Shown here piece after piece: positions 10,080 through 37,404 of a stretch of DNA of 56,602 bases. Source of the DNA: Oscillospiraceae bacterium (GTDB lineage: Bacteria; Bacillota; Clostridia; Oscillospirales; Oscillospiraceae); NCBI GenBank assembly GCA_017506735.1, contig JAFVMW010000075.1:1-56602 (forward strand), given 5' to 3'. The notes under the pieces are model-generated. The model worked only from the letters and a program-made list of their open reading frames with translations. It was not told the origin of the DNA and made no database searches. Numbering within the stretch: the first letter of the stretch is position 1; each line of letters starts with the position of its first letter. The position numbers and the translations under genes were made by a program.

Positions 10080-10139
10080 CTAAGGAACCTCTGAATAAAT
10101 CGTCTGCGGCAGCTGACGATTTATTCAGAGGTTCCTTAG
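10080..10139. mobile_element. 60-bp perfect palindrome, IS-end or MITE relic
   Basis: 25-bp arms (10080-10104 and 10115-10139) are exact inverted repeats around a 10-bp centre. The arms contain GGAACCTCTGAATAAATCG, which is also the left end of the element at 12841. It is flanked by TA on both sides, which suits a TA target duplication. It interrupts the terminator stem that is intact in the other copy of the 144-bp repeat (37237-37274). Confidence 0.7.
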
Positions 10140-10279
10140 ATTTGAGAGCGATGAGATGCTTCGGCATTATTCATGCATAGAGGAGCTTTATCCTCATTTT
10201 GTCCGCAAAAACGGCTTTGGGATGCCGAAAACCATTGGTATTACAGCACTTTTCCGTTTCTGTGGATTATTCCCACTCG
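10136..10279. repeat. Left 144-bp direct repeat, attachment-site-like (ends with the guaA 3' core)
   Basis: It matches 37261-37404 in the same orientation with 4 mismatches. The last 13 bases correspond to the end of guaA (minus strand ..CGAGTGGGAATAA). Similarity stops exactly there; the guaA coding sequence does not continue. This is what one boundary of an element integrated in the guaA 3' end would look like. Confidence 0.75.
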
Positions 10280-10488
10280 TTGCCGGGACTTGCATCTTAA
10301 ACAATTTTGTTGAGAAGATGTTGTGCCTGCTGTTCTGATTATTTTGATTGCCCATATTGTCTTAGCTGTACGATGGATGCTTATCAAAATCTTATCAGTG
10401 GTGATAAACCACCATGGGACGGTCATAAAAGTTGTTTCGGGTGGTTGTCACCCTAACAGTAGCATTATACGCAAAACCGACCGAAAAA
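10280..10488. other. Non-coding stretch at the left island edge
   Basis: No gene, strong hairpin or recombinase remnant was seen between the repeat and the MATE gene. Confidence 0.5.
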
Positions 10489-11799
10489 TCAAGATATTGA
10501 CTGTTTCTTTTTCATACAAACAGTCGCTATTATCGCTACAGCAAACTCTGCAACGGGCATCGTAAACCACAATGCACTGTTGCCGAACAGAACGGGAAGC
10601 AGGAAGATAAGAATGCCGCTAAGAACCAGTCCTCGACCGAGAGAAACAGCCATCGAAACGCTTGCCTGTGCAACAGACTGGAAGTAATAGGTGGAGAACA
10701 TATTAAACGGCATTAGAATGAACGAAATGCCGTAGGCACGCATGATTGCAGGAGCAATCGTCAAGACCGCTTCTGTCGGTTTCATAAAGAAGCCCACAAT
10801 CGTGTTCGGAATCAAAAACAATACCGTTGTAAAGATAACACCAAATGCAAAAGACGTAGCAGCGGCATATTTGCGTGTCTCCATAACACGGTCTGTTTTT
10901 CCTGCGCCGTAATTGATGGACAGGATCGGCTGTGCTGCCTGTCCGGCACTATACGCACAACTCATCAGCACCAAGCTGTAATTTGCAATAACACCGTACA
11001 CCGCCAGAGCGTCTGTTCCCAGCAGGCGAAGCACCTGATAGTTGAACATAACCGTTAAAACACCGGGCGCAAAGTCTGTGAGGAACGCAGAGAAACCATT
11101 GATAAAGATGCTGCCTGCTTTCTTCGCAAAACCGTTAAATCGTGTCAGCTTTAAGGTGCATTTCTTTGTCGCAAAGTGAGTCAGCAAAAGCACAAAGGAT
11201 AAAACTGCACCGGAAGCCGTAGCCAGACCGGCTCCGAATATGCCCATATCCAATGCAAACACAAAGAACCAGTCACCAAATATATTGAATACACCACCGG
11301 CAACGATTGCGACAGAAGCTAAACCCGGAGCGTTGTCATTTCTCAAAAAGGATGCCAGCATATTATTAATCACAAATGCAGGAACAGCAAATTTGATAGC
11401 ACCCAGATAGTCCACCGCCATATCCAACAAAGTGCCATCTGCGCCGAGCAAATGCAGAATCGGTCTGTTAAACACAAAGACCACAAACCACGCAAGCAAC
11501 GCAATGATAGCATTGAAAACGATGGATGCTGTGAAATACTGGTTTTCATCGCCTGATTGTTGTCCTCTCTTTTGGCTGTAAAGGACAGCACCACCGACAC
11601 CTGCAAACATAGCAAGACTGTAAATAAACGATACGATAGGCATTGCCATAGACATAGCAGCCGTACCAATCGGACCGTAATACTGCCCAACCATTGCCAT
11701 ATCCACCAAAGTGTAAATACATTGCAGCATACAGCTACCAAAGGATATAGCAACATATTTGAAATAAACGCTTCTGATTTTTCCATTAAGTAAATCCAC
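10489..11799 (-). CDS. MATE family multidrug/cation antiporter
   Basis: A 436-residue integral membrane protein with about 12 hydrophobic segments in two halves. It is typical of MATE exporters, which expel drugs or metabolites in exchange for Na+ or H+. The start is set at the GTG at 11799: AGGAGG lies 7 bases upstream and the sequence then reads VDLLNGKIRSVYFKYVAISF, the usual MATE opening. A longer in-frame start at 11886 (TTG) would lie inside the leader hairpin. The gene is lower in GC than its neighbours, which suggests transfer. It is preceded by a 160-base leader with a terminator, so expression is probably induced by ribosome-directed antibiotics. Confidence 0.88.
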   Translation of the reverse strand: MDLLNGKIRSVYFKYVAISFGSCMLQCIYTLVDMAMVGQYYGPIGTAAMSMAMPIVSFIYSLAMFAGVGGAVLYSQKRGQQSGDENQYFTASIVFNAIIALLAWFVVFVFNRPILHLLGADGTLLDMAVDYLGAIKFAVPAFVINNMLASFLRNDNAPGLASVAIVAGGVFNIFGDWFFVFALDMGIFGAGLATASGAVLSFVLLLTHFATKKCTLKLTRFNGFAKKAGSIFINGFSAFLTDFAPGVLTVMFNYQVLRLLGTDALAVYGVIANYSLVLMSCAYSAGQAAQPILSINYGAGKTDRVMETRKYAAATSFAFGVIFTTVLFLIPNTIVGFFMKPTEAVLTIAPAIMRAYGISFILMPFNMFSTYYFQSVAQASVSMAVSLGRGLVLSGILIFLLPVLFGNSALWFTMPVAEFAVAIIATVCMKKKQSIS

Positions 11800-11815
11800 A
11801 GAATCCTCCTGCAAA

Positions 11816-11960
11816 ACAAAAAACGCCGGATAAGATCTGCTACACAATAGCAACTGTCTTAATCCAGCATTCACAGTACGCTGCAAATGCCCTCCAACAG
11901 AAGGTTTGTATAGGAAATCTTATCCGGCGTTGTAATTACGGTTTACATTGCCTCCGAAAT
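11816..11960 (-). promoter_or_regulatory. Leader attenuator with an AUG-stop mini-ORF upstream of the MATE gene
   Basis: The minus-strand transcript should start near 11961. It carries GGAGG (11955-11951) and, two bases on, ATGTAA (11948-11943), a start codon directly followed by a stop. The arm 11931-11917 then pairs perfectly over 15 bp with 11836-11822 and is followed by a T-rich run, an intrinsic terminator with a large loop. A ribosome held on the mini-ORF would sit next to the first arm and could block the terminator. The mechanism is inferred; the elements are visible. Confidence 0.65.
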
Positions 11961-11967
11961 TTTTGGA

Positions 11968-11996
11968 ATTATATCACATATTATGAAAAAAAGCAA
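11968..11996 (-). promoter_or_regulatory. Promoter of the MATE leader
   Basis: On the minus strand: TTGCTT (11996-11991), a 17-bp spacer, and TATAAT (11973-11968) with an upstream TG (extended -10). Confidence 0.75.
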
Positions 11997-12014
11997 GGAG
12001 ATAAAAGAAAAAAA

Positions 12015-12044
12015 GCCGCCCGCAGGATTTCTCCCACGGGCGGC
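12015..12044 (-). terminator. Terminator of the SGNH hydrolase gene
   Basis: GCCGCCCG (12015-12022) pairs with CGGGCGGC (12037-12044). On the minus strand it is followed by a run of T. Confidence 0.8.
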
Positions 12045-12103
12045 GTATGGTCAGCTATCCAAAGGCTTGTATTCGGTTACGGTTTTCAGATAGGTTGGCG
12101 AGG

Positions 12104-12781
12104 TCATTTCATATTGGTGCTACAGGGGAAAGAACTGTTTTGATCTTTTGGCTGTTCATCTGGAATGCGGTCGAAGATCCGCTTCCATTCCCGCGCAACG
12201 AGACCGTGGCCAACGATAGTGGGGTGAACACCGTCCCGGACATAATAGGTCTGGGGAGCGTTCTCGAAGTTTTGCTCAAAAATTTCCTGAAGCCTTATGC
12301 AGGGAATCTTGATATCCTGGGCGATTCTACGGACTGCTTCTGCACGTTTGGGAACTTCCTTGGAAATGAAGCCCCAGTTTTGTGCTGTGGAGGAACCCAG
12401 GAAAACGAAAGGCTCCATAAGGATAATCTTCGTGGTGGGAAGTTCCTCCTGGATCTCTTTCAACATAATCCTTAGCACCTTTTCGAATTTTTCCGCGCTG
12501 ACACCGTTGCTGTAGGCGGCTTCATAGAGTACATCGTTGACCCCTATGAGGATACTCAGATAATCTGGACGAAGATTGATGCAGTCCGATTTAATCCTCG
12601 CATACAGGTCTACCACCCGATCACCACTAATTCCACGATTCAGGAATTCATATTCACCCGGATGTTCCAAACCAATCTGAGCGGCCAGAAGGGCTACATA
12701 GCCCGAACCGAGCCAGTCCTCCTCTTCTCTTGAACGGCGTGCGTCAGTGATAGAGTCTCCCCAAAAAAGAATGCGTTTCAC
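12104..12781 (-). CDS. SGNH/GDSL-type esterase
   Basis: A 225-residue hydrolase without a signal peptide, so cytosolic. The SGNH blocks are clear: FWGDSIT (block I, catalytic Ser in GDS, residues 8-10), NRGISGD (block II, Gly), IGVND (block III, Asn) and DGVHPT (block V, Asp and His). Relatives remove acetyl groups from sugars and xylan oligomers or act as lysophospholipases. Beside a hexosamine locus, an O-deacetylase acting on imported glycans is plausible but not proven. RBS GGAGG precedes the ATG. It is a single-gene unit with its own terminator. Confidence 0.85.
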   Translation of the reverse strand: MKRILFWGDSITDARRSREEEDWLGSGYVALLAAQIGLEHPGEYEFLNRGISGDRVVDLYARIKSDCINLRPDYLSILIGVNDVLYEAAYSNGVSAEKFEKVLRIMLKEIQEELPTTKIILMEPFVFLGSSTAQNWGFISKEVPKRAEAVRRIAQDIKIPCIRLQEIFEQNFENAPQTYYVRDGVHPTIVGHGLVAREWKRIFDRIPDEQPKDQNSSFPCSTNMK

Positions 12782-13133: not shown

Positions 13134-13895
13134 TCACAGCTTTGCAGCGCTGTCGGGCTCAATGTAGAGGATTGCGTGGGGGTGGTTGCGCATGGCGGTG
13201 GCAGGGCAATGCTCACCCACGGGACCGTTGACGGTGGCTGCCACAGCATCTGCCTTGGTGGGGGCAGGCACTACGCAGTACAGCTCCTTACCGGCCATCA
13301 GGGCAGGAACGGTGAGGGTCAGCGCATGGGTAGGAACCAGATCAATGGAGGCGAAGCATCCGTCGTTGACCTGCTGCTGGCGGCAGATGGGGTCCAGCGG
13401 AACGGGCTTGATCAGAACGGGATCAGCGAAATCAGCCACAGGGGGATCATTGAAGGCCACATGACCGTTCTCGCCGATGCCCAGCACCACGATATCCGTG
13501 GGATATTTGGTCAGAAGGGCGGTATAGCGGGCACACTCAGCCTCGATATCAGCGGCATTGCCGTTGATGTAATTGACACTGCGCCAAGGGGCATGGTCAA
13601 ACAGTGCCCGGCGGAGGAAATTGCCGAAGGCCTGGGGGGCATCCCCGGGCAGACCGATGTACTCGTCCATGTGGAATGCGTTGATCCGGGTGAAGTCGAT
13701 GGATCTATCGGCCACAATGGAAGCCAACACCTCATTCTGGGAGGGGGCTGCGGCAAAGATCATGTTGCAGACTTCTTTTTCAGCCAGCACGCGTTTGATG
13801 GCATCGGAGATGTCGGCAGCAGCAGCCTTGCCCATCTCGCTCCGGTTCTCGTAAATATTGACCTGCAACAGGTCGGCAGCAAAGGTTTTCAGCAT
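13134..13895 (-). CDS. nagB: Glucosamine-6-phosphate deaminase
   Basis: A 253-residue cytosolic enzyme converting glucosamine-6-phosphate to fructose-6-phosphate and ammonia, the last step of hexosamine catabolism. NagB family motifs are present: AFHMDEYIGL (substrate Asp), VLGIGENGHVAFNDP (catalytic Asp/His region) and RQQQVNDGCF. The length is usual for Firmicute NagB without an allosteric extension. It is the last gene of the leftward operon and starts 12 bp after nagA. It acts directly on the NagA product. Confidence 0.93.
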   Translation of the reverse strand: MLKTFAADLLQVNIYENRSEMGKAAAADISDAIKRVLAEKEVCNMIFAAAPSQNEVLASIVADRSIDFTRINAFHMDEYIGLPGDAPQAFGNFLRRALFDHAPWRSVNYINGNAADIEAECARYTALLTKYPTDIVVLGIGENGHVAFNDPPVADFADPVLIKPVPLDPICRQQQVNDGCFASIDLVPTHALTLTVPALMAGKELYCVVPAPTKADAVAATVNGPVGEHCPATAMRNHPHAILYIEPDSAAKL

Positions 13896-13907
13896 GGTAT
13901 GATCTCC

Positions 13908-15083
13908 TCAATTCTCAAAACGGATGATTCCATCCGTCCAAACTGTTTTCACGTTGATATTTTCATCGAACAGTACCAGATCTGCCTTCCGTCCAGGAGC
14001 GACGGTTCCGGTGATATGGCTTCTTCCGATAATACGGGCGGGGGTGGCGGTGACCATTTCCACCGCATCAGGCAGACTTGTTCCGGCGAGCTGGACCATG
14101 TTTCGTACCAGACGGTCGGTGGTGGCCACAGAACCGGCGAAGGCTTTGCGGTCGGGCATCTTGGCGACACCGTCCTCGATGATTACTTTCTGACCATTTT
14201 CCAGACTTCCCAAAATGCTCTCACCACTGGTCTGACCGGCACCACGCATGGCATCGGTGATCAGGCACAGACGCTTAGGGCCGATAAACCGATATGCCAT
14301 CTGAAGTAATTCTCCAGGCAGATGACAGCCGTCGGCGATGATCTCACTGGTCAGCTCATCCAGCACGTAGGCTGCTTCCACAATGCCGCCCCGGCGGAAG
14401 CCACCTACCCGGGTGATGGTGGAGCAGCCTGAGTACAGATGAGTCACATGGGTGAATCCGGCGGCCAATGCATCCTTTACTTCAGCGTAAGTGGCATCAG
14501 AATGTCCGATGGAGGCAAGCACACCCCGGTTTGTCAGTTCCCGGCCCATATCCAGCGCACCGGGCAATTCCGGAGCCAGGGACCAACGGACAATATCCGG
14601 ACAGGCCTCAAGCATCAGTGCGGCTTCTTCCGCATCGGGATCACGCATCTGGCTTGGGTCCTGGGCTCCGGCCTGAGCGTGGGAGAAATAGGGCCCCTCC
14701 AGATGAAGACCCAACATCCGGCAGCCGTCCTGAATGTCGTCTCGACACCGGTAGAAGATCTCGAATGCCCGCAGAAGTTCTTCACGGGTGGCAGACAGGG
14801 TTGTGGGGGTCATGCAGGTGGTTCCGTGGGTCAGGTGGAGCCGTGCGGCAGTGCGCCAGGCATCTTCTGTACCGTCCATAAAGTCTGCGCCACCGCCTCC
14901 GTGACAGTGGATATCGATGAAACCATGGGACAGATACAACCCCTGTCCGTCGAATCCGGCCAGCGAAGGATCGGCGGTACCGACAGGCAAAATCGCCTCT
15001 ACCAGATCATCACAAAGCACGATGTCGCTTGGAGTGATGACACCATCCTGTACCAGACGAATGTTGCGAATCACACTTCTCAT
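13908..15083 (-). CDS. nagA: N-acetylglucosamine-6-phosphate deacetylase
   Basis: A 391-residue amidohydrolase-superfamily enzyme that removes acetate from GlcNAc-6-phosphate in the cytosol. Visible features are IDIHCHGGGG (the metal HxH), HLTHGTTCMTPT, an HLEGPYFS segment with the metal-binding Glu, ASIGHSDA, HLYSGCSTI and an LITDAMRGAG region with the catalytic Asp. The length is typical. The start overlaps the end of the isomerase gene by 4 bp (ATGA), and nagB follows after 12 bp, so the genes form one translationally coupled unit. Confidence 0.92.
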   Translation of the reverse strand: MRSVIRNIRLVQDGVITPSDIVLCDDLVEAILPVGTADPSLAGFDGQGLYLSHGFIDIHCHGGGGADFMDGTEDAWRTAARLHLTHGTTCMTPTTLSATREELLRAFEIFYRCRDDIQDGCRMLGLHLEGPYFSHAQAGAQDPSQMRDPDAEEAALMLEACPDIVRWSLAPELPGALDMGRELTNRGVLASIGHSDATYAEVKDALAAGFTHVTHLYSGCSTITRVGGFRRGGIVEAAYVLDELTSEIIADGCHLPGELLQMAYRFIGPKRLCLITDAMRGAGQTSGESILGSLENGQKVIIEDGVAKMPDRKAFAGSVATTDRLVRNMVQLAGTSLPDAVEMVTATPARIIGRSHITGTVAPGRKADLVLFDENINVKTVWTDGIIRFEN

Positions 15084-15946
15084 GCTAGCGCCTCCTTTAC
15101 GATCCGACGCAGAGCCTCAGCACTTTCAGCAGTGGCACCAAGACCACCCTCGGAGAAGGCGGCACCGCCGGGGCGGGTCATCAGTTCCTCGCTGATTTCA
15201 GAACCTACCCGGTAATGGGTTTCCAGACTCATCCAGCCGTCGTAGCCGTCACGATTCAGCGCCCGGATCAGGCCGGGATAATCTACCCAACCGGTTCCGA
15301 TGCAGACGCAGTAAGACTCGTCCAGTTCATTTCGCACTGCATCTTTGATGTGGACATGACGCACCCATTTTTTGACGGCTTCATAGCCGTCGGGATAGGG
15401 TACCTCCCGGAACATATCGTAGATATCATTACCCGGATCGTAGATCGCACCTACCACATCCGAGCCGATTTGCTCCAGCAGGGCTGCCAGAGCGGCATGG
15501 TTGGTGGTGTTCACAGAGGGGTCTGCCTCCAGCAGAAGGGTTTTTCCCCGTGCTTTCAGAATTTCGATGGCAGGCGTAAAAGCCTGAACGATTTCATCGG
15601 TGATTTCCGGGCCGCATTCCCCGGCGAAGAACGCAAAGCCCCGGATGGTGCCGCAGTCCAGAATGTCAGCAGCATCGCAGAGTCTGCGGAGCTTTTCCAG
15701 TTCGCCTGCCACCTCATGGGGAAAGCATTTATAGAAGGAACTTGCCAGATTGCAGACAGTCAGTCCGGCATCATCCAGCAGATGTTTGTACTCAGTCAGT
15801 TTTTCGGCAGAGATCCGGTCGATAGGGGTGTCCTCCACGCTTCGTAACTCCACTCCGGAAAAACCGTGGGCCTTGGCGAAGGCGATGGCTTCTTTCAAAT
15901 CCTGAGTAGCTTCGTCGGTGATGAAAGACAGTTTGATCTCACTCAT
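15080..15946 (-). CDS. Sugar phosphate isomerase/epimerase-like TIM-barrel protein
   Basis: A 288-residue xylose-isomerase-like (AP endonuclease family 2) barrel. Likely metal ligands are a Glu in LLLEADPS, Asp in GAIYDPGND, His in VRHVHIKD and Glu in MSLETHYR. Relatives isomerise or epimerise free or keto sugars, or act with Gfo/Idh partners in oxidised-sugar elimination. It overlaps by 4 bp both the upstream Gfo/Idh gene and the downstream nagA. Such tight coupling suggests that it handles the product of the oxidoreductase before the Nag steps. The exact reaction is not determinable. Confidence 0.8.
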   Translation of the reverse strand: MSEIKLSFITDEATQDLKEAIAFAKAHGFSGVELRSVEDTPIDRISAEKLTEYKHLLDDAGLTVCNLASSFYKCFPHEVAGELEKLRRLCDAADILDCGTIRGFAFFAGECGPEITDEIVQAFTPAIEILKARGKTLLLEADPSVNTTNHAALAALLEQIGSDVVGAIYDPGNDIYDMFREVPYPDGYEAVKKWVRHVHIKDAVRNELDESYCVCIGTGWVDYPGLIRALNRDGYDGWMSLETHYRVGSEISEELMTRPGGAAFSEGGLGATAESAEALRRIVKEALA

Positions 15947-16974
15947 CCAATCATCACCGGCTTTCCCTGTCGGCTGGATTCGTAGATGCCGCAGATGACC
16001 TTCACCGCCAGCGCAGCCTCCTGGGGGGGCAGCATGGGGGTTCTGCCATCACGGACCGCTTCGGCGATGTCCCGGAGCAGGCAGATATGGCCGTAGATGC
16101 CGATGTCGATGGGATTCTTCGCACCGCCTACTGCTTCGCCCAGATCGGGCCGCTGGGGTGCGTTTTCCTTGTCGATGAACTCCCAGGCAATGATGTGCTG
16201 ATCGTCAAAGGAGACAGTGCCCATGTCGCCATAGATGGTGAAAGTGCTGCTGAAGCCTGGATAGGCGGTGGTGGCACCCTCAATGATTACCATAGCACCG
16301 GATTTCATCTGAATCAGTGCCGCAGCGGTGTCTTCCACCGGAATATCCCGGGACATGGTCTTTGCCTTACCGTAGACTGTGTCAATCTGATCGCCCAGCA
16401 TCCACAGAATCAGATCAATTCCGTGGACACCCTGATTCATCAGTGCGCCGCCGCCGTCCAGGTCCCAGGTGCCACGCCAGCCGGCGGAATTATAGTAAGC
16501 CTGATCCCGGTAGTAGTTGAGCCGTGCTTCTGCCATACAGATCCGGCCAAGTTTGCCCTCCTGCACCAGCTGCCGCAGGGCGATGGCCACGGGCATCAGC
16601 CGCCGCTGGAAGATGCACTGCATGGTGGTGTTGTTTTTCTGAACAACCTCGATGACCTGATCCACCTTCTCCGGGGTGATTTCCATGGGCTTTTCGCAGA
16701 CAATAGCCTTGCCTGCATTGGATGCATCGATGACTACCTGACCGTGAAGTCCACTGGGCACACATACACAGACGATGTCCACATTGGGATCTGCCAACAG
16801 CTCATGGTAGTCATAGTACACCTTCTCAAAGCCGTGATCGGCGGCATACTGATCCGCCTTTTCGGGGATGATGTCACAGCAGGCATAACGTTTGCAGCCT
16901 TCTCCCTCCAGCTGTTTCAGGGCGCTGGCATGGGTGAATGCGATGATACCGCATCCAATGATACCAAAATTCAT
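15943..16974 (-). CDS. Gfo/Idh/MocA family oxidoreductase (leftward operon)
   Basis: A 343-residue NAD(P)-dependent sugar dehydrogenase. The N-terminal Rossmann motif is FGIIGCGIIAFTHA, EKPME carries the catalytic Lys, and the C-terminal substrate domain contains GGGALMNQGVHGIDL with the His/Asp pair. ATG at 16974 was chosen because GGAGGAGC precedes it; an upstream in-frame ATG lacks this. It shares unusual segments (YYxSxxWRGTWxxDGGGALMNQG) with the enzyme at 20317, so the two are close paralogues in the two arms of the locus. It probably oxidises a ring hydroxyl of a hexosamine-type sugar. Confidence 0.85.
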   Translation of the reverse strand: MNFGIIGCGIIAFTHASALKQLEGEGCKRYACCDIIPEKADQYAADHGFEKVYYDYHELLADPNVDIVCVCVPSGLHGQVVIDASNAGKAIVCEKPMEITPEKVDQVIEVVQKNNTTMQCIFQRRLMPVAIALRQLVQEGKLGRICMAEARLNYYRDQAYYNSAGWRGTWDLDGGGALMNQGVHGIDLILWMLGDQIDTVYGKAKTMSRDIPVEDTAAALIQMKSGAMVIIEGATTAYPGFSSTFTIYGDMGTVSFDDQHIIAWEFIDKENAPQRPDLGEAVGGAKNPIDIGIYGHICLLRDIAEAVRDGRTPMLPPQEAALAVKVICGIYESSRQGKPVMIG

Positions 16975-17004
16975 ATGTTTGCTCCTCCTCGTTCTGTCCA
17001 TAAA

Positions 17005-17874
17005 TCAGCAGTTCTGTAAATCCACCGTATCCGACTGCACAGGTACACGGTAGGTAAAGTAGTAGTTCCTCGAGTATCTCTGCCGGTATTCTACCGGCGA
17101 CAGACTTTCATTGCTCTTGAAATAGCGACTGAAATAGTGCAGGCTCTGGAAACCAACCATCTCCGATATTTCGCTGATGCTGGAATCTGTATTCAATAGA
17201 AGTGCCTTTGCTTTCTCAAGCCGAATCCGGTTGATGTATTTGATGGGCGTGGTGTCAAATGCCAGCTTAAAGGCCTGGATCAGGGTGCTCTTGCTGACGA
17301 TGGCAACGTGGGCCAGATCCTCCAGAGAGATGGGGGAGGCATAATTTTGATGGATAAATTGGGTTACCTTCTGGATGTCCACACCACCTACAGATTTCAC
17401 CGGGGCGTCCTCCGGGGTGGCGGCAGGTCTCGGAGCTGGTGCCGCAGTTCCCGAGCGGAGGATTCCGGTGAGAGCAAGGCCGAAATACATACAAATCCGT
17501 TCGTAGCTGTAAGGCAGCTTCTCCTCGCTCTCCTTCAGAATTCGGTCGAAATAATACTGAAATCGGGGGAACACCGCATCATCCAGACGGTTTGGCAGAA
17601 GCATGGCATCCTGCGCCAGTGGACCGTCAGCAAGTGTGAATTTCAGATCCATCATCTGAGGCTGTTCTGACGGGCTGTTTCTCAGGATCGCATGGGGAAC
17701 ATAGGGTCGGATCAGATATGTACTCCGCTCTGTCAGGGAGAACTGTTCTTCCCCAATGCGGATCGTTCCGCCGCCCTTCAGTACGGAGATAATCTGCCAG
17801 TAGCTGTGACTGTGAAGTTCGTTTTCCCAGTGCTGGTAATACTTGCCCGACCACAAAACCACATATTCGTGCAA
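17005..17874 (-). CDS. AraC family regulator of the leftward operon
   Basis: A 289-residue regulator. An N-terminal cupin-like sensor (about 1-130; LHSHSYWQIISVLKGGGTI) is joined by a Pro/Ala-rich linker to a C-terminal pair of helix-turn-helix motifs (about 170-265; ISLEDLAHVAIVSKSTLIQ and ISEISEMVGFQSLHYFSRYF). The start is assigned to TTG at 17874 because GGGAGGT lies ideally before it; an earlier ATG at 17919 lacks one. It is first in the leftward operon, 30 bp before the Gfo/Idh gene, and divergent from the dehydrogenase operon. It probably senses the sugar and activates both directions. Confidence 0.85.
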   Translation of the reverse strand: MHEYVVLWSGKYYQHWENELHSHSYWQIISVLKGGGTIRIGEEQFSLTERSTYLIRPYVPHAILRNSPSEQPQMMDLKFTLADGPLAQDAMLLPNRLDDAVFPRFQYYFDRILKESEEKLPYSYERICMYFGLALTGILRSGTAAPAPRPAATPEDAPVKSVGGVDIQKVTQFIHQNYASPISLEDLAHVAIVSKSTLIQAFKLAFDTTPIKYINRIRLEKAKALLLNTDSSISEISEMVGFQSLHYFSRYFKSNESLSPVEYRQRYSRNYYFTYRVPVQSDTVDLQNC

Positions 17875-28570: not shown

Positions 28571-28621
28571 AACGGAATGGTAATAATCCATTCCAAAATA
28601 AACAAATCAGGAGGAACAAAA

Positions 28622-30073: not shown

Positions 30074-30111
30074 TTCCGGTAATCAATACCGTCTGACCTG
30101 ATAACACGCAA

Positions 30112-30136: not shown

Positions 30137-30167
30137 ATTTTTAACTATTCCGAAAGGATGTGGAAGT

Positions 30168-31124
30168 ATGCCGGAAAATACGCTGGCTCCCAACCTCGCC
30201 CATAATAAGAAAACCAGCCGCCAGCAGAAACGATTCTTCTGGATCGGCCTGGCCTTCGCATCTCCCTGGATCATCGGCTTCCTGCTGTTCAAGGTCTATC
30301 CGATCTGCAGCGCCATCTATTTCTCCTTCACCAAGTATAATATGTTCAAGCCCCCTGAGTGGATCGGCCTGGACAACTATAAGGAACTTTTCACTGACCC
30401 CTATGTGAAGAAGAGTTTCGCTAATACCACCTACATGGTCATTGTGGGTCTGCCAATCAGTTTGTCCTTCGCCATGGTCATGGCTATGATCATGAATCTG
30501 CGGGCAAAGGGTATGCCCCTGTTCCGGACCATCCTGTATCTGCCCAGTGTGGTGCCCAGTATGGCCAGTGCACTGCTGTTCCTGTGGGTCATGAATTCCC
30601 GCTACGGTATCGTGAACAACATGATCAGCTTCATTGGACTGAAAGGACCCTCCTGGCTGAATGATCCGGACTGGACCAAACCGACTTTGATTATTATGGG
30701 CTGCTGGGGCTGCGGCGGTACTGCCGTGATCTTCCTTGCTGCCTTGAAAAGTGTTCCCACCCATCTGTATGAGGCTGCCCGACTGGACGGTGCCGGTAAA
30801 TGGCGCCAGTTCTGGACCATCACAATTCCCATGATCTCTCCCACCATTCAGTTCCAGTTCATCATGGGTATCAACAGCATGTTCCAGTACTTCACTCAGG
30901 CCTTCGTGTTTAATATGTTTACAGGCTCTGCCGGACAGGTCACCGGCGGTGGACCGGCAAACTCGATGCTGTTCTATAGTATCAACCTATACCGGGAAGC
31001 CTTTGACTATTTGAACATGGGCTACGCCAGTGCACTGGCTATGGTGCTGTTTATAATCATTCTGGTGGTCACCTTTGTGGCCATGCGTGTCAGCGACCGG
31101 ATGGTCAACTACGATGTGGAATAA
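30168..31124 (+). CDS. Sugar ABC transporter permease (UgpA/LacF type)
   Basis: A 318-residue membrane protein with about six transmembrane segments. The EAA loop that contacts the ATPase is EAARLDGAGKWRQFWTITIP (near residue 203). A polar N-terminus precedes the first segment (FFWIGLAFASPWIIGFLLF). It follows the binding-protein gene behind a hairpin and precedes the second permease by 12 bp. No ATP-binding gene is present, so a shared MsmK/UgpC-like ATPase encoded elsewhere is expected. Confidence 0.9.
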   Translation: MPENTLAPNLAHNKKTSRQQKRFFWIGLAFASPWIIGFLLFKVYPICSAIYFSFTKYNMFKPPEWIGLDNYKELFTDPYVKKSFANTTYMVIVGLPISLSFAMVMAMIMNLRAKGMPLFRTILYLPSVVPSMASALLFLWVMNSRYGIVNNMISFIGLKGPSWLNDPDWTKPTLIIMGCWGCGGTAVIFLAALKSVPTHLYEAARLDGAGKWRQFWTITIPMISPTIQFQFIMGINSMFQYFTQAFVFNMFTGSAGQVTGGGPANSMLFYSINLYREAFDYLNMGYASALAMVLFIIILVVTFVAMRVSDRMVNYDVE

Positions 31125-31136
31125 GGAGGTATGGCT

Positions 31137-31991
31137 ATGAACAAGAATACCAACACCTTGGCTGTGGCCAAAAATGTCTCCGGCTCCATCATTAAGTATG
31201 CCTTCCTGATCGGTCTGTCCTGCATCTTCATCATGCCTCTGGTATGGATGGTTTCCACCTCTCTGAAGCCCAATCAGGGCCTGTTCGTATTCCCCATTGA
31301 GTGGATTCCCAAGGAGCCCCAGTGGCACAATTACAGCCGGGTCTTTGAGCGTGTGGATTTTGCAGGCTACATCAAAAACACACTGATCACCTCCCTGACC
31401 CCTGTTGTGGGTACCCTGCTTGTTACTCCCATGGTTGCCTACTCCATTTCCATGGTCCCCTGGAAGGGCGCAAAGATCATCTTCCCCATCATCCTCGCCA
31501 CCATGATGATCCCTGGCCAGGTTACTCAGATCCCCATGTACATCACCTGGTCCAAGCTGGGTTTCATCAACACCTATGTTCCTCTGATTCTGCCCTATTT
31601 TGTGGGTACACCCTATTATATCTATCTGATGCGCCAGTTTATGAAGAGTCTGCCCAACTCTCTGGTAGAGGCAGCCCGTATCGATGGCGCTGGTGATGTG
31701 CGGATTCTGTTCCAGATCATCTATCCTCTGTGTCGTCCCGTGCTGACCACCATCGGTGTGCTGGTGTTTATCGCCTGCTGGAACGACCTGAATGGTCCTC
31801 TGATCTATCTGCAGGACAGCTCCAAGTACACCATTGCTGTTGGTCTGAAGAGCTTCATGCTCTCTGCCAAGACTGACTGGGAGCTGCTGATGGCCGCCAA
31901 CACCATTTTTACACTGCCTCTGATTATCATTTTCTTCCTGGCGCAGAAGCAGTTCCTGGGTGGTATCTCCACCACTTCCGGCCTGAAATAA
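31137..31991 (+). CDS. Sugar ABC transporter permease (UgpE/MalG type)
   Basis: A 284-residue membrane protein with about six transmembrane segments and the EAA loop EAARIDGAGDVRILFQIIYP. ATG 31137 is chosen over ATG 31131 because AGGAGGT ends at 31130 and only the later start has normal spacing. It forms the heterodimeric channel with the preceding permease. It is the last gene of the transporter trio; the acetyltransferase follows 78 bp later. Confidence 0.9.
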   Translation: MNKNTNTLAVAKNVSGSIIKYAFLIGLSCIFIMPLVWMVSTSLKPNQGLFVFPIEWIPKEPQWHNYSRVFERVDFAGYIKNTLITSLTPVVGTLLVTPMVAYSISMVPWKGAKIIFPIILATMMIPGQVTQIPMYITWSKLGFINTYVPLILPYFVGTPYYIYLMRQFMKSLPNSLVEAARIDGAGDVRILFQIIYPLCRPVLTTIGVLVFIACWNDLNGPLIYLQDSSKYTIAVGLKSFMLSAKTDWELLMAANTIFTLPLIIIFFLAQKQFLGGISTTSGLK

Positions 31992-32069
31992 TTCTCCTCT
32001 CGGCTCTCCAGTCCTGTCTTGTGCGATTCCAGGGCTGGGGAGCCATATTATCATGGAAAGGAGCATTCT

Positions 32070-32648
32070 ATGCTTGATTTGTCCGTTCCCTTTTATCCGG
32101 TAATGATGATTTGCCGGGAGCCAAAAGAATATGCCTGTAATCTTCCAGAGGGAATCACCCTTCGTTTCTGGGAACCGGGGATGGAAGAAGCCTGGGGCAG
32201 AGTCCACATGGCAGCTGGTCAGTTGGGTACCATGGAGAAGGCCCTGCGTATTTTTCATCAGGAGTTTGCCCCCTATCCCGATGAACTGAAAAAGCGGATG
32301 TTCTTTCTATATGAAGGCGACCGTCCTGTGGCTACCATGACTGTGTGGTTTGGCAATGACCTGGGATACCCCGCGACCCGGCTTCACTGGCTCAGCTGTG
32401 TTCCGGATTGCCAGGGAAAGGGGTTGGGTAAGCTGACCATGGACATCTCCCTGTGGCTGTATCGCCAGCTTGGTTGCACCGGTCCACTGTATCTCACCAG
32501 CCAGACCAGCAGTTATGTGGGCATTAATATTTACAAAAAATACGGCTTCGAGCCCTACCTCGGTCCCATGCCGGACAATGGAGTCCAATGGGACAATGAA
32601 AAGGCATGGGCTATCATCAATGAGAAATTGGCAGCATATCGGAAGTGA
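32070..32648 (+). CDS. GNAT family N-acetyltransferase
   Basis: A 192-residue protein. The acetyl-CoA binding motif is QGKGLGKLTM (about residues 114-123), after the beta-strand region WLSCVPDCQ. A C-terminal IYKKYGFE segment is typical of GNAT enzymes. RBS AAAGGAG precedes the ATG at 32070. It probably acetylates an amine of a small molecule, possibly an amino sugar given the neighbours; the substrate is unknown. Confidence 0.85.
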   Translation: MLDLSVPFYPVMMICREPKEYACNLPEGITLRFWEPGMEEAWGRVHMAAGQLGTMEKALRIFHQEFAPYPDELKKRMFFLYEGDRPVATMTVWFGNDLGYPATRLHWLSCVPDCQGKGLGKLTMDISLWLYRQLGCTGPLYLTSQTSSYVGINIYKKYGFEPYLGPMPDNGVQWDNEKAWAIINEKLAAYRK

Positions 32649-32677
32649 TTGCTCCAGTTTTCCAGCTGTGCTATAAT
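32649..32677 (+). promoter_or_regulatory. Promoter of the yesL-like/amidohydrolase operon
   Basis: TTGCTC (32649-32654), a 17-bp spacer, and consensus TATAAT (32672-32677), 33 bp before the ATG. Confidence 0.75.
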
Positions 32678-32709
32678 CCAATCATCCCAATTCTAGTAAG
32701 GTGATTAAC

Positions 32710-33423
32710 ATGTCTTTGTTCTCCAAGCAAAAAACTCCGCCCCCACCTCCAAATGGTACGGAGGAGTACCATCCCATCTGGTCAAATTTTGAATTTCTGT
32801 TCCTGACTAATTTTAAGCTGATCCCCTTCTTTCTGCCCAGCATCGTTGCCATGGGCCTGTTTCTCGCCTTTGGGGGCGGTCTGTTTCTGCTGGCAGCTAT
32901 GGTGCTCCTGCTTCCTGCTGGACCGGCGGTGTGCGCCATGTATGATGTGAGCTATCAGCTCTGCCGTGAGGTGCCAAAGCATGAACGTCGGGGCTTTTTT
33001 GCCAGTTACCGGTTGAATCTGAAACAGGGCATTTCCACTATGGCGGTGCAGCTTCCTGTGATCTTCCTGCTGCTGATGCTTCTGCTGATTCAGGGAGAGA
33101 AGCCTCTGTGGGTGACACTGTGTCTGATTCTGGGTAGTGTGATTCTACTGGCGTTTTCCATTCTGGCGTTCTCGCAGACGGCACTGGTGGAACTTCCGCT
33201 GCTTCAGATCTGGAATAATGCTTTGTTTTTGATCCCGCTGACTCATTGGAGGAGTCTTGTTCCTGCTGTGGTGCATCTGCTGTATCTGGCGGTACTGTAT
33301 CAGTGGCTGGGATGGGCATTTCTGCTATTCCTGTTTCTTGGCCCAGCTATGCTTATTGCATGGAGCGCCAATACTCTGTGGCCCGGGCTGGAGCCGATCC
33401 TGATCCGGGGAGATGATCAATGA
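32710..33423 (+). CDS. YesL-like (DUF624) membrane protein
   Basis: A 237-residue protein with about five hydrophobic segments. A Pro-rich cytoplasmic start (KTPPPPPNG) precedes LLTNFK-like and AGPA..AMYDVSYQLCRE segments that recall DUF624/YesL. YesL-type proteins accompany sugar ABC transporters in Firmicutes and have no defined activity. ATG 32710 has AAGGTG 6 bases upstream; GTG 32701 overlaps that RBS. It overlaps the following amidohydrolase gene by 4 bp. Confidence 0.7.
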   Translation: MSLFSKQKTPPPPPNGTEEYHPIWSNFEFLFLTNFKLIPFFLPSIVAMGLFLAFGGGLFLLAAMVLLLPAGPAVCAMYDVSYQLCREVPKHERRGFFASYRLNLKQGISTMAVQLPVIFLLLMLLLIQGEKPLWVTLCLILGSVILLAFSILAFSQTALVELPLLQIWNNALFLIPLTHWRSLVPAVVHLLYLAVLYQWLGWAFLLFLFLGPAMLIAWSANTLWPGLEPILIRGDDQ

Positions 33424-34166
33424 GTCCCTTGATCGATGTTCACGCCCATATTTGGCTCGGGCAGGAAGCGGAAAATGCCCGAGCTATGACCAGGGCAGCC
33501 AGAGAATATGGCATTGAAAAGATTCTGATCTCACCACTGGGTTCTCATCAGCCAGACAGAGCGGAAATCTGTCAGTTGAATCGCAGGGCACGGGAACTCT
33601 GCGAAGGAGATCCTCTCTTTTCCCGATATGTGACCGTTGCTCCGGAGCAGGAGAACGCTCTGTCTGTGCTGGAGGAGGGACTCCAAACCGGCGCTGTGGG
33701 TATGAAGCTGTGGGTGTCCTGTCTGTGCGACGATCCCCGATGCGATGCGCTGTATGAACGGTGCGCGGAGGAGTCGGTTCCCGTGCTGATCCATACCTTT
33801 TCCAAAACGGTGGGGCAGCTTCCCGGAGAATCCACCGCAGTTCATCTGCACCGGGCGGCGCTGTGTCATCCAGACACCGTATTCATAATGGCCCATCTGG
33901 GAGGAAATTGCTATCACGGCATTCCGCTAATTCGAGATCTCGGGAATGTATACACAGACTTTTCTGGCTCCGGCAGCCGTCGGGATGATCTTCCCTATGC
34001 GTTGGAGCAGTTAGGCGCTGAGAGAATCCTGTTTGGTACCGATATGCCGGGTTCCTTTTCCATGAGCTGGGGACAGGTGCTGTCCGCAGGATTGACGAAA
34101 CGGGAGAAAACGCTGATCTGCCGGGAAAACGCCCAGCGGCTGTTCCCGACTCTGAGGAATATGTGA
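33420..34166 (+). CDS. Metal-dependent amidohydrolase (family 2)
   Basis: A 248-residue barrel enzyme. The metal ligands are in place: HxH in IDVHAHIW (near residue 8), His in VLIHTFSK, His in IMAHLGGN and Asp in LFGTDMPG. Relatives hydrolyse lactones or decarboxylate and hydrate small acids. Its stop overlaps the start of a homologous gene (TGATG), and it follows the YesL-like gene with a 4-bp overlap. A lactonase step after sugar oxidation would fit the locus, but this is inference. Confidence 0.8.
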   Translation: MSPLIDVHAHIWLGQEAENARAMTRAAREYGIEKILISPLGSHQPDRAEICQLNRRARELCEGDPLFSRYVTVAPEQENALSVLEEGLQTGAVGMKLWVSCLCDDPRCDALYERCAEESVPVLIHTFSKTVGQLPGESTAVHLHRAALCHPDTVFIMAHLGGNCYHGIPLIRDLGNVYTDFSGSGSRRDDLPYALEQLGAERILFGTDMPGSFSMSWGQVLSAGLTKREKTLICRENAQRLFPTLRNM

Positions 34167-34903
34167 TGAACTATGATCTTTCCGCGTTCTGCGGACACTG
34201 GCCTTTCCGAAAACTACGGCGTGCGTCTTTACCTGAGCAGCTGGAGGAATATGCCCATCTGGGCTTTTTCGGAGGCTGTATGTCCAGTCTGGACGCGATT
34301 TTTTACAACGATCCATGGGAGGCTGACGAACCGCTGCTGAATGCGCTGGAGGGCACCGGGTGGCATCCTGCTATTTGCGTTAACCCACTTCTTCCATGGT
34401 GGGAGATGACTACGGAAAAGGCGCGCCGCCGTGGAGTGCGCCATCTGCGGCTCTATCCGGGGATTCATCGGTATGATGTGAAGATGGCAGAACCGGTGTT
34501 TCAGCTTGCAGAGACACTGGGGATGGTCGTGATCGTTACAGCCCGTATGGAGGATGACCGTCTATGTTACCTTCTGGAGCAGCAGCCAGTGGATCTGTCC
34601 GAATATGCGGAAATATGCAGACAATATTCTTCGGTTCCGGTGCTGTTCTCCGGCTGCTATGCAGGGGAGCTGACTGCACTGAAGGATGTTCCAACGAATC
34701 TCTGGACGGATACTTCCGGGCTTTGCCACGGACTCTGGCCCATAGAGGAGCTGATCCGAAATGGGTTTTCGGCAGAGCGAATCGTTTTTGGTTCCCTGTC
34801 GCCACTGCAATGTGTGCATAGTCATATGCAAAATCTGCCGAAAACAGAGACGGATGCCATTCTAGTTCACAATCCCAAACGTTTTTTGGAGGAAATGCCA
34901 TGA
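34166..34903 (+). CDS. Amidohydrolase-fold protein lacking the metal ligands
   Basis: A 245-residue homologue of the preceding gene. Aligned by eye, the HxH becomes CGH (SAFCGHWPF), the third ligand His becomes Thr (VIVTARMED), the fourth becomes Gly (LFSGCYAG), and the Asp motif FGTDMP becomes FGSLSP. The barrel landmarks LWTDTSG and ERIVFG remain. It is therefore probably not a canonical metalloenzyme, and may be a regulatory or structural partner of 33420. Start and stop overlap its neighbours by 1 and 4 bp, so it is under selection rather than decayed. Confidence 0.7.
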   Translation: MNYDLSAFCGHWPFRKLRRASLPEQLEEYAHLGFFGGCMSSLDAIFYNDPWEADEPLLNALEGTGWHPAICVNPLLPWWEMTTEKARRRGVRHLRLYPGIHRYDVKMAEPVFQLAETLGMVVIVTARMEDDRLCYLLEQQPVDLSEYAEICRQYSSVPVLFSGCYAGELTALKDVPTNLWTDTSGLCHGLWPIEELIRNGFSAERIVFGSLSPLQCVHSHMQNLPKTETDAILVHNPKRFLEEMP

Positions 34904-36237
34904 TTAACTACGGTGAACTGCCCGTTCTGGCAGAAAGTGATGTGGTTGTCTGCGGTGGTGGTACCGCAGGTGTATTTGCTGCGGTCGCAGCGGCAGAGCA
35001 GGGAGCCAGAGTGCTCCTTCTGGAACAAACCGGCTGTGTAGGAGGCACTGCTGTCGCAGGCCTTGTGACACCTATGATGAGCCTGCGCCTACCGGAGGAT
35101 GTACACTGCTCTTATCTGAGCCGCAGAATGGGAACAGAGCGGAACAACGATCCTCTGGTACTGGGATGGAAACTGGAACGGATGTGTGTTAAGGCCGGTG
35201 TAGAAATTTTGTACCATGTGACCCTATGCGGTGCAGTTCGGGAACGGGAACAGATTCGTGAGGTTATTCTCGCTACCAAGCAGGGCCTTGCTCGTGTACA
35301 GGGACAGGTATTCATCGATGCCAGCGGTGACGGGGATCTGTGTGTATTCGCAGGTGCAGAATATGACCATGGCAATCCGTATACCGGAGCAAATCAGCCC
35401 ATGTCCTTGCGATATCTTCTGGGTGGCGTGGATGTGGCACGATTGGGTGGTTATTTTCAGGAACTTGGACAGACGCTTGGTCCGTCGCACACCGCAAAAG
35501 CTGGCGATGAATACCATCAGATCTATGCGGCCGTCATGTCCACCGGTGACTGGGCACTGAAGTCCCTGTTTACTCATGCCGTCGAGACAGGGGAACTGAA
35601 GCAGGAGGACATGGCCTACTGGCAGCTTTTTGGTGTGCCCGGGCGACAAGACACAGTGACACTGAACAACCCGGAGTTTTTCGATCTGACCGACGCCACG
35701 GACCCATTCCAGCTGACCCAGGTGCAGATTCGGGGCAGAGAGGCGATTTTCCGTCAGCTGGCATTTTATCGCAGACATTTCCCCGGCTGTGAAAACGCAT
35801 ATGTCGCCCAGATTGCCCCCATGGTGGGGGTCAGGGAAAGCCGCAGAATCCATACACGATGTCGGCTTACAGGGCTGGATCTGGCTGCCCGTCGTAAATA
35901 TCCAGACCGGATCGCTCAGTCCAATTATCCAGTGGATATCCACGGTCTGCCGCTGGATGCGCAAGGGACCTATCAACCCGACCCTCGTCCGTGGTTTGAA
36001 GTGCCGTTCCAGTGCCTTGTCCCTGTTGGTTTTGATAACCTGCTGGTTGCAGGACGGTGTATCGGCGCGGATTTTGTGGCCCAGTCGGCACTGCGAATCC
36101 AATTGACCTGTCGTTCTATGGGTGAAGCTGCCGGTATTGCCGCAGCCATGGCGCTGAAAAGCGGAGAAATGATTTCCTCGCTGGACGGAAAAGCGGTTGC
36201 AGAATGCATGGTTGACTTGGGTGCGGAATTTCTTTGA
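34900..36237 (+). CDS. FAD-dependent oxidoreductase (FAD_oxidored family)
   Basis: A 445-residue flavoprotein. The dinucleotide motif VVVCGGGTAGVFAAVAAAEQG lies near residue 15, followed by LLEQTGCVGGTAVAGLV, the family signature. VFIDASGDGDLCVFAGAEY and a C-terminal GRCIGADFVAQSALRIQ complete the FAD site. Members oxidise or reduce cyclic hydroxy and keto compounds and occur in sugar loci. It overlaps the metal-less amidohydrolase by 4 bp and is the last gene of the operon; the terminator lies about 260 bp downstream. Confidence 0.8.
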   Translation: MINYGELPVLAESDVVVCGGGTAGVFAAVAAAEQGARVLLLEQTGCVGGTAVAGLVTPMMSLRLPEDVHCSYLSRRMGTERNNDPLVLGWKLERMCVKAGVEILYHVTLCGAVREREQIREVILATKQGLARVQGQVFIDASGDGDLCVFAGAEYDHGNPYTGANQPMSLRYLLGGVDVARLGGYFQELGQTLGPSHTAKAGDEYHQIYAAVMSTGDWALKSLFTHAVETGELKQEDMAYWQLFGVPGRQDTVTLNNPEFFDLTDATDPFQLTQVQIRGREAIFRQLAFYRRHFPGCENAYVAQIAPMVGVRESRRIHTRCRLTGLDLAARRKYPDRIAQSNYPVDIHGLPLDAQGTYQPDPRPWFEVPFQCLVPVGFDNLLVAGRCIGADFVAQSALRIQLTCRSMGEAAGIAAAMALKSGEMISSLDGKAVAECMVDLGAEFL

Positions 36238-36346
36238 TGTAATTCGCCAAATGGGATGAATAGAAAAATGTGATTATCTGCTTGAATCAGCAGTATGCCA
36301 CCTATTTGAGCGAAGCTGAAACAAAAACATTGGGAGGTTGATTACT

Positions 36347-36466
36347 ATGTACTATGATGGTAGTAATTCTGTAAAACATTTATGAGGCACAGACAGCGGC
36401 GGTAACGAGTGCGCTGACTTTGGTTATGAGATTGTTTCCTATAGAGCAAAACCTGACAGACAGTAA
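36347..36466 (+). pseudogene. Short reading frame with one in-frame TGA
   Basis: After TGGGAGG, ATG at 36347 opens MYYDGSNSVKHL, then TGA (36383-36385), and the same frame runs on as GTDSGGNECADFGYEIVSYR to TAA at 36464. The RBS and protein-like composition on both sides suggest a 39-residue peptide broken by a point mutation. Selenocysteine is unlikely, as no SECIS-like hairpin directly after the TGA is evident. Confidence 0.3.
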
Positions 36467-36499
36467 TGTGCTCTGAAATCTTCCTGCTTTGCAAATGTA

Positions 36500-36531
36500 C
36501 CCCCTTGTGTAGTATTTTCTGCACAAGGGGG
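36500..36531 (+). terminator. Terminator downstream of the FAD oxidoreductase operon
   Basis: CCCCCTTGTG (36500-36509) pairs with CACAAGGGGG (36522-36531) and is followed by TTGTGTATTTTT. Confidence 0.75.
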
Positions 36532-36606
36532 TTGTGTATTTTTGAATTTATTGATGGCGTTCGATTCTGGGATAAATTGTTATCTTTCTCTGCGGGATTG
36601 CGGTAG

Positions 36607-37121
36607 TTCGTCAACAGAATAAACATTCAATTCAGAGATCTCTTGAAATCATCGAAGTATGAAGCACTTGTGGGTGAGTTGATGAATAAGTCCCAGGTCG
36701 TATTTCCACATAGCTATGCCCATCAAGAAGATCAGTCTGCCGGACAGTGTGACTATCTGATTCGTCTACCGGGGAGAAGTTTGATGTCAAACTGCCGTTA
36801 AGCTCAAAGGATGGAAAACAAATCGGAAGCAGGAAGGGTAATGTGGGCAACTTTTCAAAAATAATGTATCAGGAAGTTGCCGAGTTTGCGATTAGTCCTG
36901 GAAAGAAGGCGAATCATGATGCAATGGTCATGGATTTGAGCCTATATAAGACTATGAAGAATCTAATTTCCAAGACGAATCCGGACGAGCATGTCATATT
37001 CTTCATTCCATATCCAATCGTGCTTGACTTCACAAATTTTCCATTATCTGGTGCGATAGATATCTTAAAAGCCATATATCGGTTACTTAACAAGGAACTG
37101 AATTTCGGAGAGAAAGGTTAA
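36607..37121 (+). pseudogene. Frameshifted gene remnant, possibly nuclease-like
   Basis: One frame from 36607 reads RDLLKSSKYEALVGELMNKS...CDYLIR. Near 36763-36770 it must change frame, after which TGEKFDVKLPLSSKDGKQIG and NFSKIMYQEVAEFAISPGKK run on to a stop at 37121. The joined product is about 170 residues without a clear start. The spacing of the Asp in CDYLIR and FDVK resembles a PD-(D/E)xK nuclease core, but this is a weak guess. Decayed genes are expected at an island edge. Confidence 0.4.
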
Positions 37122-37162
37122 GTCCTTTCACTGATTCGGAATCAAGAAAGAGAAAAATCAAC

Positions 37163-37321
37163 GTCCTCAGCTGTCCTCAGCGCAAAAATTTGATTTTCTC
37201 CTGTCCTCAGAGACATGTGAGAAAAGAATAAAAAAAGCTCTCAAATCTAACCGGTAAAAGTTAGATTTGAGAGCGATGAGATGCTTCGGTATCATTCATG
37301 CATAGAGGAGCTTTGTCCTCA
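37163..37321. repeat. Four direct GTCCTCA repeats, candidate recombinase arm sites
   Basis: GTCCTCA occurs at 37163-37169, 37173-37179, 37203-37209 and 37315-37321, all in one orientation, within 240 bp of the guaA core. Phage-type tyrosine recombinases use such short repeated arm sites beside their core. The left 144-bp repeat has ATCCTCA at the fourth position. Confidence 0.5.
37237..37274 (-). terminator. Terminator of guaA
   Basis: A perfect 15-bp stem (37237-37251 with 37260-37274) and an 8-nt loop. On the minus strand it is followed by T7. Part of this stem is inside the 144-bp repeat; in the left copy it is broken by the palindrome. Confidence 0.8.
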
Positions 37322-37404
37322 TTTTGTCCGCAAAAACGGCTTTGGGGTGCCGAAAACCATTGGTATTACAGCACTTTTCCGTTTCTGTGGATTATTCCCA
37401 CTCG
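37261..37404. repeat. Right 144-bp direct repeat, overlapping the guaA 3' end
   Basis: The copy of 10136-10279 with 4 differences. Bases 37392-37404 are the last codons of guaA. Everything left of the core to 37261 is shared with the left copy, so this arm belongs to the integrated DNA or to an earlier element at the same site. Confidence 0.75.

Follow-up and report, generated by a model that had tools for sequence, protein, structure and literature searches.

A probable accretion-derived, integrase-less segment at the 3' end of guaA in an Oscillospiraceae metagenome-assembled genome

Cis-mobilizable elements (CIMEs) and their three-step origin are treated in sections of PMC5704250, accretion has been described in streptococci (PMC5357655), and guaA is known as a target of integrative and conjugative elements (ICEs) (PMC4701971). 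Integrative and mobilizable elements (IMEs) located at the guaA 3' end include ATE-1, the Brucella IncP island and GIsul2 (all in a table of PMC5704250), as well as the streptococcal Tyr_3 family (PMC5357655). Here we analyzed a window of 56,602 nucleotides, the whole of contig JAFVMW010000075.1 of an Oscillospiraceae bacterium (assembly GCA_017506735.1), in which a 27-kb segment carrying catabolic genes is enclosed by two copies of a 144-bp direct repeat, one of them at the guaA 3' end. We consider it likely that repeated integration at this site, followed by the loss of mobility genes, produced a chimeric, CIME-like segment that has no integrase. The evidence supports accretion well; how the events followed one another and whether the segment is mobile at present are inferred.

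Boundaries of the segment and the attachment cores

A base-by-base comparison of the repeat copies (10136-10279 and 37261-37404) confirmed what an earlier note on this DNA had reported, i.e., 144 nt in the same orientation with 4 mismatches, which are placed at left-copy positions 10165, 10168, 10190 and 10222. Beyond the repeat, the two sequences next differ at 10280 and 10283, and an unprompted repeat search returned a direct repeat of 147 nt with 97% identity (10136-10282 and 37261-37407). Each copy terminates in an exact attachment (att) core, ATTCCCACTCG (coordinates of all features are given in Table 1). The right core constitutes the 3' end of guaA, since this open reading frame (ORF), encoded on the minus strand, ends at 37392, and the similarity of the left copy to the right one stops directly after the left core; thus, one copy contains the true end of guaA and the other stops at the core, as the note had also claimed. 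The metagenome-assembled genome (MAG) holding the window (2.31 Mb, 117 contigs, 81% complete; the window is its contig C97) contains only these two copies. Close-relative searches covered 199 genomes including its own, and among the 198 others region 37130-37391 was matched in four (E<=0.001), once over 134 nt at 78% identity and three times over 27-35 nt. The repeat is therefore not a dispersed sequence; dispersal was what the note had named as speaking against its own reading.

To the right of the left core lies a recognizable element end. The sequence 10269-10495 is 92.5% identical over 227 nt to positions 4716-4942 of locus L035 (contig C11 of genome G051), which form the left end of an integrase-bearing element situated between cores at 4716 and 14697, the second of these at the guaA end. 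The same left end is 90.7% identical in L160, a named MAG locus, and a 235-bp left-end query matched 12 of the 198 other relatives (13 of 199 with its own genome) at E<=0.001, several of them only partly. The ORFs of the L035 element resemble a relaxase, an AAA protein, a small MobC-like protein, a tyrosine integrase and an HTH protein. Pfam typing identified a relaxase (Mob_Pre) and a DUF6061 gene in L035, and relaxase, AAA_25, NikA-like, integrase and HTH genes in locus L103.

The approximately 130 bp preceding the right core, shared by both copies, resemble a right end that abuts guaA in genome G133 (78% over 134 nt), and a similar right end abuts guaA in G238, a member of another genus of the same order (76% over 94 nt). 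The G238 contig encodes an integrase N-terminus about 0.4 kb from this right end (53-64% identity over 45-64 residues). In an order-wide search (394 genomes, own included) the right end was matched in 4 genomes, i.e., its own and three others; core scans found both core and guaA in L245 (G238), guaA (88%) and no core in L246, and no core in L247. Given these guaA-abutting right ends and the integrase fragment, the extra shared 130 bp are best read as an element end and not as ordinary host DNA and, with the left-end identity to an integrase-bearing element, both boundaries of the segment look like true element ends. The internal core (10269-10279) lies between two element ends, one of the right-end type to its left and one of the left-end type to its right.

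No integrase, relaxase or MobC gene was detected in the window: a tblastn search of its full length with ten element proteins (four integrases, two relaxases and four of other kinds) reached a best E value of 0.095, and no mobility-gene Pfam family was found among the island proteins scanned. This agrees with the earlier note, according to which no recombinase survives in the segment. The MAG itself has two distant matches to the L103 integrase (26-27% identity).

Arm words and tandem cores in related genomes

In segments running from core to core, a near-identical pair of 7-8-mers at 11-bp spacing often flanks the cores, lying approximately 100 bp to the right of the left core and approximately 79 bp to the left of the right one. 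These paired 7-bp words are probably integrase arm-type sites, as the Arm-DNA-bind_4 domain (Pfam) of the L103 integrase suggests. Among 67 named guaA loci having at least 140 bp downstream, 23 carry an 8-mer pair (up to one mismatch) starting 76-84 bp downstream, and the other 9-bp bins hold 0-5.

We compared the arms in 28 segments closed by two same-strand cores, 13 of which have scorable pairs at both ends. The source of 12 of these 13 contains guaA or a homologue, while the L107 stretch shows none; L160, whose left core was assumed because its contig starts just after it, is counted among the 28 and lies outside the 13, and L228, a duplicate of L157, was left out of the second and third scorings. 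With a sliding register, the third scoring, an identical arm 7-mer occurs at both ends in 9/13 segments (shuffled mean 2.35, with 0 of 5000 shuffles reaching 9); allowing one mismatch gave again 9/13 (shuffled mean 4.58, count reached in 35 of 5000). The segments with differing arms are that of the window, L103 3250-7867, L107 and L168. In the window the words CTTATCA (left) and GTCCTCA (right) are 3 mismatches apart in all three scorings, and since they differ the segment looks composite, with ends derived from different element families. In L107, differing arms accompany an integrase match; a difference between the ends is thus no sure sign of decay.

A search of viral contigs (viral_contigs) with the left-arm pattern gave no match and one with the right-end arm pattern gave a single match (L248). 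The latter was treated as chance, as it has no core (up to one mismatch) and no GuaA or mobility-protein match, and a phage origin was rejected.

Cores in tandem are present in several relatives. The 13-mer TTATTCCCACTCG has 65 matches in 136 same-genus genomes vs. 6 for the reversed control, and two exact 13-mer cores share one contig in 8 of the 136 (own included), always on the same strand; guaA lies within the fetched stretch of the tandem-core genomes G063, G102 and G138. In G138 (L103), cores at 3250, 7867 and 18103 delimit two segments, and the last core, with one mismatch, is at a GuaA homologue. Segment 7867-18103 has a full-looking integrase and matching arms, and segment 3250-7867 a truncated integrase and differing arms.

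A wider set of 80 named guaA loci (L146-L225), kept from at least 576 confirmed ones, encodes GuaA proteins 85-92% identical to that of the window. They are MAGs titled Oscillospiraceae or Clostridia and, for a few, otherwise; many titles mention the hindgut of cattle, sheep, goat, deer, buffalo or yak, and SIG-series titles give no source. These loci hold 14 extra same-strand cores (up to one mismatch; 9 exact) vs. 5 on the other strand. The former are distributed over 13 loci, none of which has a match to the four query integrases, a scan that integrases unlike these four would escape; of the 37 loci with at least 5 kb downstream, 6 have such a core. Several closed segments in the named loci span 1-2.5 kb with one or two genes, the fetched downstream stretches being limited to 10 kb, which favours short segments; taken together, the closed segments other than that of the window span 0.5-14.6 kb, and that of the window is larger. 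In a comparison of 65 guaA-downstream regions (the window included, a few genomes present twice), the commonest shared gene is an integrase (14 regions); no shared host gene stands out and no window ORF has a partner.

Several side observations concern the same loci. Nineteen of the 80 named contigs break off 60-400 bp past guaA, which is what a repeated element end that halts assembly would produce. Two loci (L179 and L188) contain short att-bounded cassettes in which an almost identical gene is located close to the right end; that of L188 is ToxN-like (type III toxin-antitoxin, Pfam), and such a gene could possibly hold cassettes in place. An inverted guaA-tail-like stretch (..IEW.) lies less than about 170 bp from guaA, in the opposite direction, in L157, L210 and L219. 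The GuaA of the window (333 aa) is devoid of the glutamine amidotransferase (GATase) part, and in the 80 named loci the alignment likewise extends over roughly these 333 residues. The MAG has three GATase-family matches, one of them HisH as judged by us from its neighbours, and none was recognized as a GATase subunit of the GuaA type.

Internal junction, cargo and the far-left core

The stretch 12016-12096 is 96% identical to L035 8202-8282, where it is the 3' end of the DUF6061 gene of the element, and 94% identical to contig C6 of G136. In the window this remnant is cut, and the stop end of the GDSL gene follows within 8 bp (12104). The left end, the MATE gene and the DUF6061 remnant together appear to be what is left of a single element; as judged from this one boundary, the catabolic genes rightward of approximately 12.1 kb would be other DNA.

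The cargo had been described as mostly a hexosamine-glycan locus plus a MATE exporter, and Pfam identified both, together with an ABC uptake and oxidoreductase set at 24.5-36.2 kb; a role of the cargo in the use of hexosamine glycans is a prediction. The gene order of the hexosamine locus is kept in 6 same-genus genomes at 55-78% identity (the last Gfo/Idh gene in 5 of the 6; in one genome the locus is split over two fetched loci), and no att core was found near it within the fetched stretches. The locus therefore looks captured, and a native origin within the element was set aside on this ground. Of the 199 genomes, own included, 80 encode a GH20C relative, whether close or distant.

A third exact copy of the core, unmentioned by the earlier note, is placed at 203-213 and is preceded by a hairpin (CCCGAAAAG...CTTTCGGG), as in some element right ends. 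The core and the hairpin suggest that 203-10279 may be an earlier segment whose terminus is likewise of the right-end type present at 37261-37391, and region 214-10135 is putatively a decayed older segment or flank. Its ORFs of at least 100 aa have no partner (E 1e-20, 60% coverage) in the 64 other guaA-downstream regions.

As regards other features, the HTH-DUF3990 gene and its partner (8691-9985) match the PADLOC candidate defence system PDC-M42A / PDC-M42B, the first of the two scoring better against PDC-M13 models. Positions 1-141 of the window form a dispersed repeat that also opens contigs C68 and C86 of the MAG and is present in other same-genus genomes; tandem 39-bp and 234-bp repeats occur at 50765-51193 and 56029-56602. 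The palindrome 10080-10139 and its half copy (12838-12876) are MITE-like (miniature inverted-repeat transposable element) or resemble insertion sequence (IS) ends. An Rfam scan of the window gave no match at gathering scores and a tRNA scan found none.

Table 1. Features of the segment and its surroundings (window coordinates)
Feature	Position	Strand	Basis or remark
Third att-like core ATTCCCACTCG	203..213	+	exact 11-mer, strand shared with both other cores; no arm repeats on its right; tentative far-left att site
Left segment: SDR, BspA-type LRR/SLH surface protein, HTH-DUF3990 and partner	214..10135	.	Pfam; PADLOC
MITE-like 60-bp palindrome	10080..10139	.	abuts left repeat; one half recurs at 12838-12876
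Left copy of 144-bp repeat	10136..10279	+	read as right end of older element plus core; arm register ATCCTCA / GTCCGCA
Left att core ATTCCCACTCG	10269..10279	+	exact match
Left end of CTTATCA-arm integrative element	10280..10495	+	sequence match to L035, L160
Left arm-type pair CTTATCA-N4-CTTATCA	10380..10397	+	11-bp spacing
MATE-family exporter	10489..11886	-	Pfam PF01554, E 1.3e-35
DUF6061 gene 3' end and terminator-like hairpin	12016..12096	-	element backbone remnant, junction mark
GDSL-like esterase	12104..12781	-	Pfam PF13472
Hexosamine locus, leftward: NagB-like, NagA-like, TIM barrel, Gfo/Idh, AraC regulator	13134..17919	-	Pfam
Hexosamine locus, rightward: 2-hydroxyacid dehydrogenase, enolase-like, Gfo/Idh, GH20C hexosaminidase, Gfo/Idh	18077..24529	+	Pfam
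Gfo/Idh, AraC, beta-lactamase-fold protein, DUF4434, substrate-binding protein and two ABC permeases, GNAT, DUF624-like, two amidohydrolases, FAD oxidoreductase	24526..36237	+	Pfam; DUF624 below curated cut-off
Terminator-like hairpin, 15-bp arms	37237..37274	.	right half within repeat
Right copy of 144-bp repeat	37261..37404	+	read as right end of GTCCTCA-arm element plus core
Right arm-type pair GTCCTCA-N4-GTCCGCA	37315..37332	+	11-bp spacing
guaA, GMP synthase ATP-pyrophosphatase and C-terminal part, 333 aa	37392..38393	-	Pfam PF00958, E 9.3e-35
Right att core ATTCCCACTCG, guaA 3' end	37394..37404	+	exact match

Origin of the segment and comparison with known elements

The view that accretion explains the locus better than one simple event, put forward in the earlier note, is supported by the likeness to element ends on both sides of the left core and by the tandem cores of relatives. 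Our analysis refines it in two respects: the 27 kb look like a composite with two arm words and an internal junction near 12.1 kb, and the array may extend left to about position 203. In the proposed course of events, (i) an element with a GTCCTCA-type right end would first have been present at guaA; (ii) a CTTATCA-type element bearing the MATE gene would then have integrated at the guaA core; (iii) another element of the GTCCTCA type, or the catabolic cargo of such an element, would have arrived afterwards; and (iv) a deletion from approximately 12.1 kb rightward would have joined the remnants. It is predicted that the integrase of a new arrival could cut out or relocate the block via its identical cores, though a single integrase would bind well only one of its two arm sets. 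The block would be movable only with outside help.

Several points weigh against this scheme. Neither an empty site nor a genome of the same species was found, and the order of events is therefore inferred; the window is a MAG contig. The GTCCTCA-type right end was never found with a complete element, the G133 and G238 contigs stopping nearby, and the position of the junction depends on a single shared 81-bp stretch. Two earlier scorings of the arm words with a fixed register gave matches in 4/11 and 4/14 segments, not clearly above shuffles (count reached in 257 of 2000 and 930 of 5000, respectively); the match of arm words required a third version of the scoring, and the scored places were chosen after the pattern had first been seen. 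As already described, L107 combines an integrase match with differing arms. The GuaA of G138 is a more distant homologue, 53% identical to that of the window, and in four of the eight tandem-core genomes (G098, G028, G123 and G089) no guaA was found in the fetched stretch. Finally, no arm repeats accompany the left end of 203-10279, and the third core may therefore be fortuitous or belong to the flank.

The strongest alternative is that a single 27-kb element with its own end sequence integrated once and lost its integrase, the 130 bp on the left being DNA that formerly followed guaA. Both ends are indeed at the usual distances from the cores, as in one element, and the integrase could have been deleted, with the integrase-bearing L107 showing that arms may differ. 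We regard this as unlikely, however, given that the 130 bp resemble an element right end in other genomes rather than host DNA, that in the 65 regions downstream of guaA the integrase is the gene most often shared and no common host flank stands out, and that the ends carry different arm words, whereas the left-end family has CTTATCA at both ends (L035 and L103 7867-18103). An assembly artefact, in which the contig would join different strains or loci through the 144-bp repeat, is brought to mind by the fragmentation and incompleteness of the MAG, by the 141-bp repeat with which this and two other contigs open, and by the 19 of 80 named contigs ending within 400 bp of guaA; it is nevertheless improbable, because the copies differ at 4 places, each joins the biologically expected sequence (an element left end and guaA), and similar tandem layouts were assembled in other genomes. 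Duplication of the repeat by homologous or IS-mediated recombination at the adjoining palindrome, instead of site-specific recombination, can practically be set aside, since, despite the contact of this palindrome with the left copy and the recurrence of its half, it lies at the opposite end of the repeat from the core, while the att core marks the precise end of the repeat, the point at which guaA gives way to foreign DNA in other loci too, and an element left end lies across the left core.

Repeated integration at guaA with subsequent loss of mobility genes points to a way in which a metabolic gene cluster that has no integrase itself can become part of a mobile array. It also yields a candidate rule, by which arm words at fixed distances from the core would reveal element ends and chimeras in fragmented metagenome assemblies. 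More tentatively, and with doubts outweighing our confidence, the guaA 3' end of gut Clostridia may act as a cassette rack, in which elements with interchangeable, 11-bp-spaced arm words would pile up at a single core, integrase-less cassettes of small size (0.5-5 kb, in many cases with one or two genes) would ride with matching words, and recombination between stacked elements would create chimeric blocks and pass cargo between integrase families. If so, integrase-less guaA cassettes would represent a large unannotated mobile gene pool in these bacteria.

With regard to known classes, the segment has neither a detectable integrase of its own nor the relaxase/mobilization genes of an IME. As expected of a CIME, it is without detectable integration and transfer genes, it has putative attL and attR (each core being accompanied by an arm pair where such pairs usually lie), and ICE/IME descent is indicated for its left part by the left end of an integrase- and relaxase-bearing element and by the DUF6061 remnant. 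Like the CIMEs formed by ICE/IME accretion in the relevant sections of PMC5704250, it is att-flanked, located at the 3' end of a conserved gene and adjoined by an apparent end of another element; unlike them, it bears different arm words at its ends, and its mobilization is only predicted. No paper on the arm-word geometry or on Oscillospiraceae guaA arrays was found among the titles and the beginnings of abstracts listed from an open-licence library, the host-naming search being loose and of little weight.

The IMEs of guaA listed in PMC5704250 and PMC5357655 share with it the target gene and, in its intact relatives, a tyrosine integrase, but the segment itself is without a detectable integrase or relaxase, and the intact relatives found here are of the Mob_Pre/NikA type and from Clostridia. 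The Dehalococcoides ssrA islands, as far as described in the parts of PMC3146451 concerned with them, are similarly arranged in tandem, carry metabolic cargo and are delimited by direct repeats of a gene 3' end, and 15 of them are without an integration module, as the window segment is without an integrase; they differ in that a serine recombinase and ssrA take the place of the tyrosine integrases and guaA, and differing ends are a trait of the present segment. The GIsul2 core GAGTGGGA (PMC9376610) falls inside that of the window, and the attL/attLR/attR arrangement of GIsul2 with its CR2-sul2 unit comprises three att sites at guaA, comparable to the two, perhaps three, same-strand cores of the window, in another host and with other cargo. 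According to the part of that report dealing with these sites, the excision of smaller units between them was shown experimentally, whereas the window is known from sequence only. The segment fits a known kind, i.e., accretion and CIMEs, of which it is a new example with differing ends.

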